Source: Kangiellaceae bacterium
GTDB lineage: Bacteria > Pseudomonadota > Gammaproteobacteria > Enterobacterales > Kangiellaceae
NCBI GenBank assembly: GCA_013373015.1
Contig: JABXIQ010000040.1
Location: 1 to 38,824, forward strand
Direction of reading: 5' to 3'
Length of the DNA stretch: 38,824 nucleotides
Shown here: positions 14,880 to 17,659 of the stretch, one piece after another
Numbering within the stretch: position 1 is the first letter of the stretch
Layout: each line of letters opens with the position of its first letter
Translations under genes and position numbers: made by a program
Notes under the pieces: generated by a model
What the model saw: only the letters and a program-made list of their open reading frames with translations
Told to the model about the DNA's origin: nothing
Database searches by the model: none

Positions 14880-15455
14880 GTGCTTGTTTCTGACCAATAT
14901 CACGACGTGTTTGTCTTAGCAGAGCTCTTTAACCAAGAGTTTTCAGATTATGCTGTCTTGTTAAAACCGGGAGCCGATGAGCCTTTTTATCAAGCCGTAA
15001 ATGAACATCCTTCTTCGAATGCAAAAGCTAACTCTGCAATCATTTATTCAACTCAAGACTATTTCTCTAGCGCTCTGCACGAGCTAGCTCATTGGTGCGT
15101 AGCTGGTGCTAAGCGACGCCAGTTAGATGATTATGGCTATTGGTATGAAGCTGATGGACGTAGCGCTGAGCAACAAGCGCTTTTTTACAAAGTTGAAGTA
15201 AAACCCCAGGCTCTAGAATGGGCTTTTTCCTTGGCCTGTAATATTCCGTTTCGTATTAGTAATGATAATTTGAATAATAACGAACTTGCTCAAGAAGCTG
15301 TCATACATTTTAGGGATAATGTTCATCAACAACTTGCTTACTATTTTACACATGGATTTTCTGGGCGTAGTTTGAGGTTAATACAGATGTTGTGTCAGTT
15401 TTATCGACAAGGCGCCCCTATTCAGCTTCCGGACAAAGAACAATGTTTACTTTAG
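14880..15455 (+). CDS. epmC: Elongation factor P hydroxylase EpmC
   Basis: The 191-residue protein begins at GTG and matches EpmC (YfcM). It has FNQEFSDYAVLLKPGADEPFY near the start, SALHELAHWCVAG with metal ligands, and the family-typical RRQLDDYGYWYEADGRS and EVKPQALEWAFSLAC. EpmC hydroxylates the modified lysine of elongation factor P after EpmA/EpmB action. It overlaps the next gene by 13 bases, implying coupled translation. In E. coli yfcM is also near prmB, and that context is preserved here. epmA and epmB are not in the window. Confidence 0.95.
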   Translation: MLVSDQYHDVFVLAELFNQEFSDYAVLLKPGADEPFYQAVNEHPSSNAKANSAIIYSTQDYFSSALHELAHWCVAGAKRRQLDDYGYWYEADGRSAEQQALFYKVEVKPQALEWAFSLACNIPFRISNDNLNNNELAQEAVIHFRDNVHQQLAYYFTHGFSGRSLRLIQMLCQFYRQGAPIQLPDKEQCLL

Positions 15456-16567
15456 GCTTGATCATAAATCCTTTTGCGGGAATTGGCGGTAAAGTGGGGT
15501 TAAAAGGAAGTGATGGCGCTGACATTCGCCAACAAGCCTTTGAACGTGGCGCTATAGCACAGTCGGCTAATAGAGCGCGAATGGCTTTACAAATCTTAAA
15601 GCCATATAAAGAGCAATTACTTTTTTTTACCGCCGCTAATGATATGGGACAAAATCTTCTTGAAGAACAAGGGTTTAAGTATCAGGTAGTCCACCACTAT
15701 CAAGCTCAATCAAGCGCTCAGGATACCATTGATGCCGCCCAAGCGATGGCGGATCACAATATCAATGTTTTGTTATTTGCTGGCGGTGATGGAACTGCTC
15801 GAGATATATATCAAGCGATTGGTGATACTGTCCCTGTTTTGGGTATTCCTGCAGGCGTGAAGATCCATTCGGGAGTATATGCGGTTACACCAAGAGCTGC
15901 GGGGTTGGTCATAGAACAGATGATCAAAGGCGAGTTGGTGAGTTTGCTCGAAACTAGCGTGATGGATATTGATGAAGAGGCTTTTCGCCAAGGAAAAGTT
16001 AGGGCGAAGCAATATGGTGAAATGCAGGTTCCTGCAGAACATCGTTATGTTCAAGCCACAAAGTCTGGCGGTAAAGAAGTTGAGGCTATGGTACTGCAAG
16101 ATATTGCAGAATATATCGTTGAGCAGATGGATGACGATATTTATTATTTGGTGGGTTCTGGCACAACCTGCGCAGCGGTTATGGATGCGTTGGACCTGCC
16201 GAACACCTTGTTAGGGATAGATATCGTTCATCAAGAGCAGCTGATACAAGCAGATGTTTATGAAAAACATATTTTGCAACTTCTGGAACAGCATCCAAAG
16301 AAAGTGAAAGCCATCATCACTATTATCGGTGGCCAAGGTCATATAATAGGTCGCGGTAACCAGCAATTAAGTGCGACTGCCTTGCAGCAATTAGGCAAGG
16401 ACAATTTAATCGTTATTGCCACAAAGACCAAACTGAATCAACTGGCTGGTAAGCCCTTAATTATAGACAGTGATGATAGTAATATTAACTTAAGTTTAGC
16501 TGGGCCTATTAAAGTTATAACGGGTTACGAAGATTTTGTTTTGTATCCGGTTGCTACATTTGAGTGA
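15443..16567 (+). CDS. ATP-NAD kinase family protein
   Basis: The start chosen is ATG 15443 (MFTLGLIINPFAGIGGKVG), preceded by GGACAAAG. An upstream in-frame ATG at 15392 would lie inside epmC and adds unrelated residues. The 374-residue protein has the GIGG segment and the kinase motif FAGGDGTARDI (GGDGT) characteristic of NAD kinase/diacylglycerol kinase folds. It also has the COG3199-type GIPAGVKIHSGVYAVTPRAA and IGRGNQQLS. It is longer than canonical NadK and belongs to the separate 'ATP-NAD kinase' branch whose physiological substrate is uncertain. It overlaps epmC by 13 bases, so it is probably the last gene of the plsC-prmB-epmC group. Confidence 0.88.
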   Translation: MFTLGLIINPFAGIGGKVGLKGSDGADIRQQAFERGAIAQSANRARMALQILKPYKEQLLFFTAANDMGQNLLEEQGFKYQVVHHYQAQSSAQDTIDAAQAMADHNINVLLFAGGDGTARDIYQAIGDTVPVLGIPAGVKIHSGVYAVTPRAAGLVIEQMIKGELVSLLETSVMDIDEEAFRQGKVRAKQYGEMQVPAEHRYVQATKSGGKEVEAMVLQDIAEYIVEQMDDDIYYLVGSGTTCAAVMDALDLPNTLLGIDIVHQEQLIQADVYEKHILQLLEQHPKKVKAIITIIGGQGHIIGRGNQQLSATALQQLGKDNLIVIATKTKLNQLAGKPLIIDSDDSNINLSLAGPIKVITGYEDFVLYPVATFE

Positions 16568-16628
16568 ACATTCGTTTATTAGTTAATCTTTTCTATCGCT
16601 TTACGGTTGAGCTTTTGACCATTTGCTT

Positions 16629-16646
16629 TGTAAGAAATATCGCACA
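16629..16646. promoter_or_regulatory. GacA/UvrY-like binding site upstream of the candidate CsrB-type RNA
   Basis: TGTAAGAAATATCGCACA matches the GacA upstream activating sequence TGTAAG-N6-CTTACA at 10 of 12 half-site positions: all of the left half and four of six in the right. It lies about 170-185 bases before the predicted RNA start, which is the usual distance in rsmY, rsmZ and csrB promoters. The sequence match is direct; binding is inferred. Confidence 0.6.
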
Positions 16647-16779
16647 AAGAGTTCAGCAATGGCTGAAAGAGGCCGCATCAATAAGTAAGGCTTTTGCTAA
16701 AATAATTGTAACCTATTGAAATATAAATAATAAATAGCAAGTTGTTTTGCTGCGATTGTTTTTTAGTCACTTTTGGCTG

Positions 16780-16807
16780 TTGTCGAAAAGTGTTTTTTTG
16801 CTACATT
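16780..16807 (+). promoter_or_regulatory. Predicted promoter of the CsrB-type RNA
   Basis: TTGTCG (16780-16785) and TACATT (16802-16807) are separated by 16 bases. This predicts transcription starting around 16813-16816, exactly where the first hairpin of the RNA begins. Confidence 0.55.
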
Positions 16808-16814
16808 AGCTCCC

Positions 16815-16966
16815 GTGATTAGGACTATCACACTATCTACAAATCGTATTTGGAATATATGGGAACAATAATTAGGACTGAGTAAACGGAGTTACCACCC
16901 AGGATGGGATTAGGGATTAACTGAAGGATGGATTCATTAGAGAAGCGGCTTTAGCCGCTTTTATTT
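16815..16966 (+). ncRNA. Candidate CsrB/RsmY/RsmZ-family sRNA (CsrA-sequestering)
   Basis: The gap between the ATP-NAD kinase gene and kefG has no protein gene, yet it holds ten GGA motifs between 16822 and 16932. Their positions are 16822, 16852, 16862, 16875, 16888, 16902, 16907, 16914, 16926 and 16930. Several sit in the loops of small hairpins: GTGAT-TAGGACT-ATCAC (16815-16831), GTAA-ACGGAG-TTAC (16882-16895) and CCC-AGGAT-GGG (about 16898-16908). These are the hallmark of RNAs that titrate the translational regulator CsrA/RsmA. The RNA ends with a GC-rich stem AAGCGGCT/AGCCGCTT and a T tract. A promoter and a GacA-like box lie upstream. In known systems BarA/UvrY or GacS/GacA switches such RNAs on to release CsrA targets. 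The length of about 150 nt is closer to RsmY/RsmZ than to E. coli CsrB. The assignment rests on pattern; no family model was run. Confidence 0.82.
16943..16966 (+). terminator. Intrinsic terminator of the CsrB-type RNA
   Basis: AAGCGGCT-TT-AGCCGCTT forms an 8-bp GC-rich stem followed by TTATTTTG. Such RNAs typically end in this way. Confidence 0.85.
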
Positions 16967-17110
16967 TGCCTAAAATTTATAAAAGCTTAAAAATATCCTT
17001 GTTTTTTCAATCCTTTAGTTCAATTTGCGAGTATCTTTAAGTACACTCAAGTATAGAATTTTCACTCTTGTACGCTAATGGCGACTATTGGTTTGCCCAA
17101 AGGAATTAGT

Positions 17111-17659
17111 ATGCAAAACAAAGTGTTAGTCAATTTTGTCCATCCGCTTTACGAAAAATCTAAAGCAAATAAAGCTCTAGTAAGCGCGATCAATGATATT
17201 GAAGGGGTTACCTTCAATGATCTCTATGAGCGTTACCCCGATTTTTATATTGATATTGAGCGCGAGCAAAAATTGCTACTCGAGCACGATGTTATAGTGT
17301 TTCAACACCCTTTTTATTGGTATAGCTCACCGTCGTTATTGAAAGAGTGGCAGGATTTGGTTTTGGAAAATGGTTTTGCTTATGGTGATGGTGGATATCA
17401 ATTGCAAGGAAAACAATGGCTTACAGCAATTACCGTTGGTGGAACTGAGGATAGTTATGGCGCAGGTGGCTATAACCAATTTCCTATAGAGTTATTGCTA
17501 AAGCCCTTTGAGCAAACAGCTGACTTTTGTGGCATGAAATTCTTAGCGCCGTATGTGATGTATGAAGCTTTGATGTTAAGCGATACCGAGTTAGCGGATG
17601 CGGCTCATCAATATGCACAGACAATTCGCCATTTGCGTGATGGTGATTATAAGTCTTAA
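17111..17659 (+). CDS. kefG: KefF/KefG-type NAD(P)H oxidoreductase, potassium efflux ancillary protein
   Basis: The start is ATG 17111 (MQNKVLVNFVHPLYEKSKAN), preceded by AGGA at 17100; an in-frame ATG at 17078 has no binding site. The 182-residue flavodoxin-like protein has the quinone-oxidoreductase motifs VIVFQHPFYWYSSPSLLKEW and TVGGTEDSYGAGGYNQF. KefF and KefG are FMN-binding subunits that activate the glutathione-gated K+ efflux systems KefC and KefB. The next gene, 64 bases downstream, is the matching KefB-type antiporter, supporting this role over a general quinone reductase. Confidence 0.88.
   Translation: MQNKVLVNFVHPLYEKSKANKALVSAINDIEGVTFNDLYERYPDFYIDIEREQKLLLEHDVIVFQHPFYWYSSPSLLKEWQDLVLENGFAYGDGGYQLQGKQWLTAITVGGTEDSYGAGGYNQFPIELLLKPFEQTADFCGMKFLAPYVMYEALMLSDTELADAAHQYAQTIRHLRDGDYKS

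Follow-up and report, generated by a model that had tools for sequence, protein, structure and literature searches.

A probable gene for a CsrB/RsmZ-type small RNA beside an NAD-kinase-like gene in Kangiella

Does the gap between two genes at positions 16568-17077 of the window (the whole 38,824-nt stretch of DNA that was analysed) hold the gene for an RNA that titrates CsrA? The host of the window is a Kangiella species (genome 2.58 Mb, 95% complete); among named genomes, the ten best matches of the KefF-like protein encoded next to the gap all belong to Kangiella. The gap contains ten GGA motifs, a hairpin with GGA in its loop and a terminator, and upstream of these two promoter-like hexamers and a palindrome (Table 1), which an earlier note, made from the letters of the DNA, had put together as a CsrB/RsmZ-type regulatory RNA with a GacA-dependent promoter. 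We conclude that positions 16813-16967 encode, with high probability, a small RNA of the CsrB/RsmZ kind that sequesters CsrA. This kind of RNA is well known; the sequence of the window RNA fits no Rfam family. The analysis computed conservation, the covariation of hairpin 1, the terminator, the spacing of the box and the IHF-like site, the occurrence of CsrA, UvrY and BarA genes, and the absence of a common open reading frame (ORF).

Table 1. The predicted RNA gene with its parts and neighbours (window positions), and loci elsewhere that are discussed in the text
Feature	Position	Strand	Basis
UvrY/GacA-type box TGTAAGAAATATCGCACA, 18-nt palindrome	16629..16646	.	genus-wide pattern, comparison with E. 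coli csrB
IHF-like core TAACCTATTGA (YAANNNNYTGA)	16709..16719	+	match to the consensus, conserved spacing
Promoter-like TTGTCG (16780-16785), 16-nt spacer, TACATT (16802-16807)	16780..16807	+	read from the sequence
Predicted Csr/Rsm-type small RNA, ~155 nt, 10 GGA	16813..16967	+	start inferred from the -10 element
Hairpin 1 GTGATTAGGACTATCAC, GTGAT-TAGGACT-ATCAC, loop holds GGA	16815..16831	+	covariation in the alignment
Near-invariant block CTATCTACAAATCG, without GGA, directly after hairpin 1	16833..16846	+	column identity
Intrinsic terminator AGAAGCGGCTTTAGCCGCTTTT and T tract (terminator 16941-16962)	16941..16967	+	terminator prediction, conserved pairs
Upstream neighbour, NAD-kinase-like protein (PF01513, PF20143)	15392..16567	+	domain matches
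Downstream neighbour, KefF/KefG-like flavodoxin-fold protein	17078..17659	+	best NCBIfam models score under their cut-offs
K2, second GGA-rich RNA in the genome of the window, flanked by dapB and carA genes	G000:C32:7091-7215 (L202 1515-1639)		
UvrY-like box of the small-protein gene, L183	G016 C1:26741		
UvrY-like box of the small-protein gene, L185	G020 C1:346551		
UvrY-like box of the small-protein gene, L187	G018 C1:400852		

The GGA motifs start at 16822, 16852, 16862, 16875, 16888, 16902, 16907, 16914, 16926 and 16930, a span of 111 nt, which confirms the count of ten in about 110 bases (16822-16932). Their density is, as claimed, unmatched in the window: a 110-nt stretch holds 9 and a 150-nt stretch 10, with next-best values of 7 (plus strand) and 5 (minus strand). 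Ten GGA were reached by 3 of 1000 dinucleotide-preserving shuffles of the RNA body (mean 5.9) and by none of 1000 mononucleotide shuffles. Across the genus, the RNA carries 6-10 GGA in 20 of 20 genomes, and GGA tops the trinucleotide counts of the 20 RNA bodies (148 in 2499 nt); in five relatives (L011, L012, L013, L014 and L016) the count was equalled by 101-132 of 1000 shuffles. The earlier note had also placed several GGA in hairpin loops. This stood in part: it applies to the loop of hairpin 1, and seven of the ten motifs have a mean unpaired probability above 0.5; beyond hairpin 1 they are modestly unpaired, and the overall effect is modest (mean unpaired probability of 0.56 for GGA versus 0.37 for other G and 0.47 for GGA in shuffled RNAs).

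All 20 Kangiella genomes have the gene at this locus, between identical neighbours, and the NAD-kinase-like gene, the RNA and the KefF-like gene retain their order and strand throughout. The DNA search matched all 19 other members of the genus, part of them at the terminator only; the non-genus loci L021 and L023-L030, together with a second terminator-like match (L031), were kept out of the alignments. As cut, the 20 RNAs are 142-168 nt long, and the number of GGA is kept while their spacing, the length and the sequence between motifs vary. Since GGA resembles ribosome-binding sites, and some relatives have ORFs as long as 49 codons, the gap could be a spacer that is rich in GGA by chance, or a short protein gene. 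We give next to no credence to either: no ORF common to the 20 Kangiella RNAs was found, the indels among them are not multiples of three, and the covariation described below, the conserved box and the conserved terminator all speak against these readings.

Covariation was examined in alignment A2, which was built from sequence alone. Hairpin 1, which was picked by hand, shows compensatory changes: in A2, 95.4% of its 108 cells are paired, with 24 cells changed on both sides and a covariation score of 0.499, and none of 500 shuffles reached these values of paired fraction, two-sided cells or covariation score. Two of the five covariation measures lay within the shuffles, namely two-sided pairs (4 of 6; 56 of 500 shuffles) and pair types (482 of 500). 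Folding the region had been proposed as a check, and it did not single out the RNA: although hairpin 1 covaries, the RNA as folded in full does not exceed shuffled sequences in stability (MFE z -0.98), and RNAalifold, run on alignment A1, in which hairpin 1 is partly misaligned, retained the terminator as its sole consensus structure.

The GC-rich intrinsic terminator that the earlier note had described was indeed predicted, and its seven consensus pairs are kept in 20 of 20 Kangiella genomes. This constancy bears on the idea that the RNA is a leader or attenuator of the KefF-like gene, which lies downstream on the same strand in all 20 genomes (about 110 nt past the T tract in the window). 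Besides the kept terminator, 19 of the 20, the window being the exception, have a promoter-like T[TG]GTGTA[GA]ACT past the terminator and ahead of the KefF-like gene, and the RNA of other genera (see below) follows an NAD-kinase-like gene with no KefF-like match in the stretches examined. We therefore regard a leader as very improbable.

We then consider how such an RNA might be controlled. The GacA/UvrY-type box suggested upstream of the gene appears to be well founded: it precedes hairpin 1 by 186-197 nt in 20 of 20 Kangiella (186-189 nt in 19 genomes, 197 nt in L022) and comes close to the E. coli UvrY site. Allowing at most one mismatch, the genus box pattern matches the window's own genome at 16629-16646 only. 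In all 20 Kangiella, an IHF-like core follows the start of the box at a distance of 80-81 nt. The pattern YAANNNNYTGA, which we take to be the IHF consensus, has 29 matches in the 38824 positions of the plus strand of the window; a longer IHF-like pattern, YAANNNNYTGATW, is fitted by 13 of the 20 Kangiella, the window not among them. As for the promoter, TTGTCG-N16-TACATT was found where it had been placed, and its hexamers are conserved, the TTG and TAnAnT columns being invariant in A2; a strict sigma-70 scan, in contrast, finds no promoter (0 versus 1.9 in shuffles).

Boxes of this type were also seen at other places in the genus. In three Kangiella genomes, a gene for a small secreted-looking protein is preceded by a UvrY-like box with one mismatch and by what looks, by eye, like an IHF site; it may be a direct protein-coding target of UvrY. 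A second good box at L182 (G028:C29:22834) has at most 5 GGA per 150 nt nearby and a short protein-like ORF beside it, near the contig end.

The Csr/Rsm models of Rfam, proposed as the first check, gave no match in the window or in the 19 relatives at the gathering threshold, nor at a lax one, while the identical tool scored E. coli csrB at 380 bits. Lax matches to other families, SraG and BSnc120 among them, had E values no better than 0.08 and were set aside, by their appearance, as terminator or chance matches. Conservation at the same locus in 20 of 20 genomes, the partner genes and the csrB-like arrangement of box and IHF-like site nevertheless support the CsrB/RsmZ-type reading, so that the RNA would be of Csr type by its anatomy and context, not by Rfam membership.

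Orthologues of CsrA, UvrY/GacA and BarA turned up when the window's own genome was searched for partner genes. A single CsrA gene was detected; its protein passes NF002469 and TIGR00202 and has L4 and R44, presumably the key CsrA residues. The UvrY/GacA orthologue shares 57% identity with UvrY of E. coli and passes NF007018, and its gene is followed by those of UvrC and a CDP-alcohol phosphatidyltransferase, which is the uvrY-uvrC-pgsA order of E. coli. Within the genus, UvrY orthologues at 55-57% identity occur in 18 of the 20 genomes; G027 (86% complete) has a 32% match only, and no UvrY match was found in G023 (55% complete). BarA of the own genome passes NF008318, and 19 of 20 genomes match it at E <= 1e-100. 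In the own genome, the leader of csrA has three GGA immediately upstream of the start codon, which would, as expected, fit autoregulation by CsrA.

To what extent does the gene reach beyond Kangiella? Model R1, built from the 20 Kangiella sequences and hence matching them by construction, gave no match at E <= 0.01 in the 20 family genomes of other genera (three lay at 0.017-0.023). Order-wide, its matches in eight genomes of other families (E 2e-4 to 9e-3) were rejected, since these sequences contain 0-4 GGA and the 300 nt ahead of them lack an exact box; around these eight loci Rfam found one family, RF02514 in L233, apart from the R1 match. Counterparts in other genera were found through the box and synteny, not through R1. 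The box pattern matched 19 of the 20 family genomes outside Kangiella, and 43 boxes were examined after merging identical flanks, with most of the repeated G012 boxes and some one-mismatch boxes left out. At 20 of these 43 boxes, at least 8 GGA per 130 nt lie 130-420 nt off on one side, as compared with 4 of 1253 random positions in the same loci and 4 of 240 positions in a second control of 12 loci. None of these 20 GGA-rich loci (8 or more GGA) is matched by an Rfam model.

In nine genomes (G001-G009), the box follows an NAD-kinase-like gene, the first GGA comes at 203-213 from the box, and six of the nine loci have an IHF-like core at +80 to +82. Because the terminator found for G001 was unlikely and none was found for G004, G005 and G007, GGA were recounted over a fixed stretch; between box+190 and +520 there are 17-29. 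The five loci with a plausible terminator measure 285-381 nt from box+190 to the end and have 18-26 GGA. By position, the predicted window RNA is the Kangiella version of this putative syntenic gene of other genera, with fewer GGA. As the syntenic RNAs are longer and have 17 or more GGA, the Kangiella gene may be a shortened CsrB, assuming that the longer form is ancestral. The G004 RNA (L286 1793-2048 and 2151-2249) includes tandem repeats of a 41-nt unit whose consensus has four GGA, and CsrA sites may thus have multiplied there by unit duplication. In G012, TGTGCGAGATATCTCAAA occurs more than 20 times on many contigs, probably within a dispersed repeat.

Apart from the terminator, the block CTATCTACAAATCG is the best conserved stretch of the RNA, its columns averaging ~0.87-0.90 identity. 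Eight of its bases could pair with the site GUAGAUAG in the own-genome csrA leader, to which they are complementary and which lies 45 nt upstream of the start codon. One could thus picture a UvrY-controlled small RNA that acts chiefly by base pairing with mRNAs through the CUAUCUACAAAUCG block, its GGA motifs being helpers (CsrA-assisted stability or pairing). Both the conservation of the block and its complementarity, noted in the own genome only, would favour this picture; an 8-nt match, however, is expected by chance about one time in five in the 2.3 kb examined, the number of GGA is kept despite changing spacing and sequence, and the core of the block, ATCTAC, is absent from all nine syntenic RNAs of other genera (box+190 to +520). 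We consider base pairing as the chief function very unlikely. A combined history, in which small-genome Kangiella shortened a CsrB sponge at its ancestral site (from 17 or more to 6-10 GGA) and gained CUAUCUACAAAUCG as a base-pairing block, possibly aimed at csrA mRNA, seems to us unlikely, if less so; if it were true, a single RNA would both titrate CsrA and target an mRNA. A CsrA-sequestering RNA is the reading that we retain for the window.

The own genome contains a second GGA-rich RNA, K2, which was located starting from a further box in G021. K2 is ~125 nt long with 5-6 GGA. The own-genome copy is flanked by genes with DapB and carbamoyl-phosphate synthase small-chain domains; it has 5 GGA, a hairpin with GGA in the loop and a terminator, and a degenerate UvrY box lies at -179. 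Model R2, built from 17 K2 sequences, finds K2 in 19 of the 20 Kangiella genomes (the exception is G023) and reaches two other genera, with E 4e-16 in G015 and 2.8e-5 to 1.9e-9 in five of six g3 genomes. Weak R2 matches are numerous: at E <= 0.01 they occur in 35 of the 40 genomes of the family and in 41 of the 197 of the order. Only those in Kangiella, G015 and the five g3 genomes were counted. Rfam gave no match at the 17 K2 loci, and dapB and carA were not found beside the other-genus box loci in the stretches examined.

Taken as a working scheme, the parts of the window gene suggest the following pathway, for which we infer transcription and its start, UvrY and IHF binding, and CsrA binding with titration. 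BarA would phosphorylate UvrY/GacA, which would bind the palindrome at 16629-16646; IHF would bend the DNA at 16709-16719 and so bring UvrY to the weak promoter at 16780-16807. The transcript would extend to the terminator at 16941-16962, and its GGA motifs, the best being that in the loop of hairpin 1, would bind several CsrA dimers, so that mRNAs would be freed from CsrA.

How does this gene compare with known systems? CsrB of E. coli and Salmonella (RF00018) likewise has an upstream palindrome of similar sequence, an IHF-like site between box and promoter, a GGA-rich body and an intrinsic terminator, in genomes with BarA, UvrY and CsrA genes. Counted from the box start, the IHF-like core lies at 89 nt, the transcription start at 191 nt and the first GGA at 199 nt in csrB of E. 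coli K-12, compared with 80 nt for the core and 193 nt for the first GGA in the window. The two differ in size (369 nt with 22 GGA in CsrB versus ~155 nt with 10) and in neighbours, and RF00018 is unmatched by the window RNA. Pseudomonas RsmX, RsmY and RsmZ are, like the predicted window RNA, short RNAs with few GGA and a GacA-type upstream site; they differ in that the window matches none of the Rfam Csr/Rsm models. In the consulted part of Zere et al. 2015 (PMC4682653), the UvrY site of E. coli csrB, TGTGAGAGATCTCTTACA, is centred at -183/-182, and csrC is described with a degenerate palindrome and an upstream half-site. The K2 promoter resembles that of csrC as given there, with a degenerate palindrome and, by eye, a TGTAAG half-site upstream; K2 differs from CsrC in its ~125 nt, its 5-6 GGA and, in the own genome, its place between dapB and carA genes.

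A further parallel comes from Pseudoalteromonas fuliginea, whose Csr RNAs Pf1, Pf2 and Pf3 have 25, 21 and 9 GGA, according to the consulted part of PMC11882849. Pf2 and Pf3 were discovered through GGA motifs, promoter and terminator, all three bind CsrA by experiment, and these Csr RNAs are largely confined to one genus, Pseudoalteromonas (same part of PMC11882849). Kangiella is similar in having several predicted Csr RNAs per genome, its own being predictions from sequence. In the literature searched, judged by titles and the openings of abstracts, no Csr RNA of Kangiella or the Kangiellaceae is described.

That the gap holds the gene of a CsrA sponge is thus very likely correct. The Kangiellaceae would gain a full predicted Gac/Csr output, with a promoter laid out like that of csrB, a second Kangiella RNA of this kind and, at one syntenic site, RNAs that range from short to long. 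The combination of box pattern and GGA count pointed to Csr-type RNAs of other genera that Rfam misses, and the short-to-long series opens a way to study how many CsrA sites a sponge gains or loses as genomes shrink.
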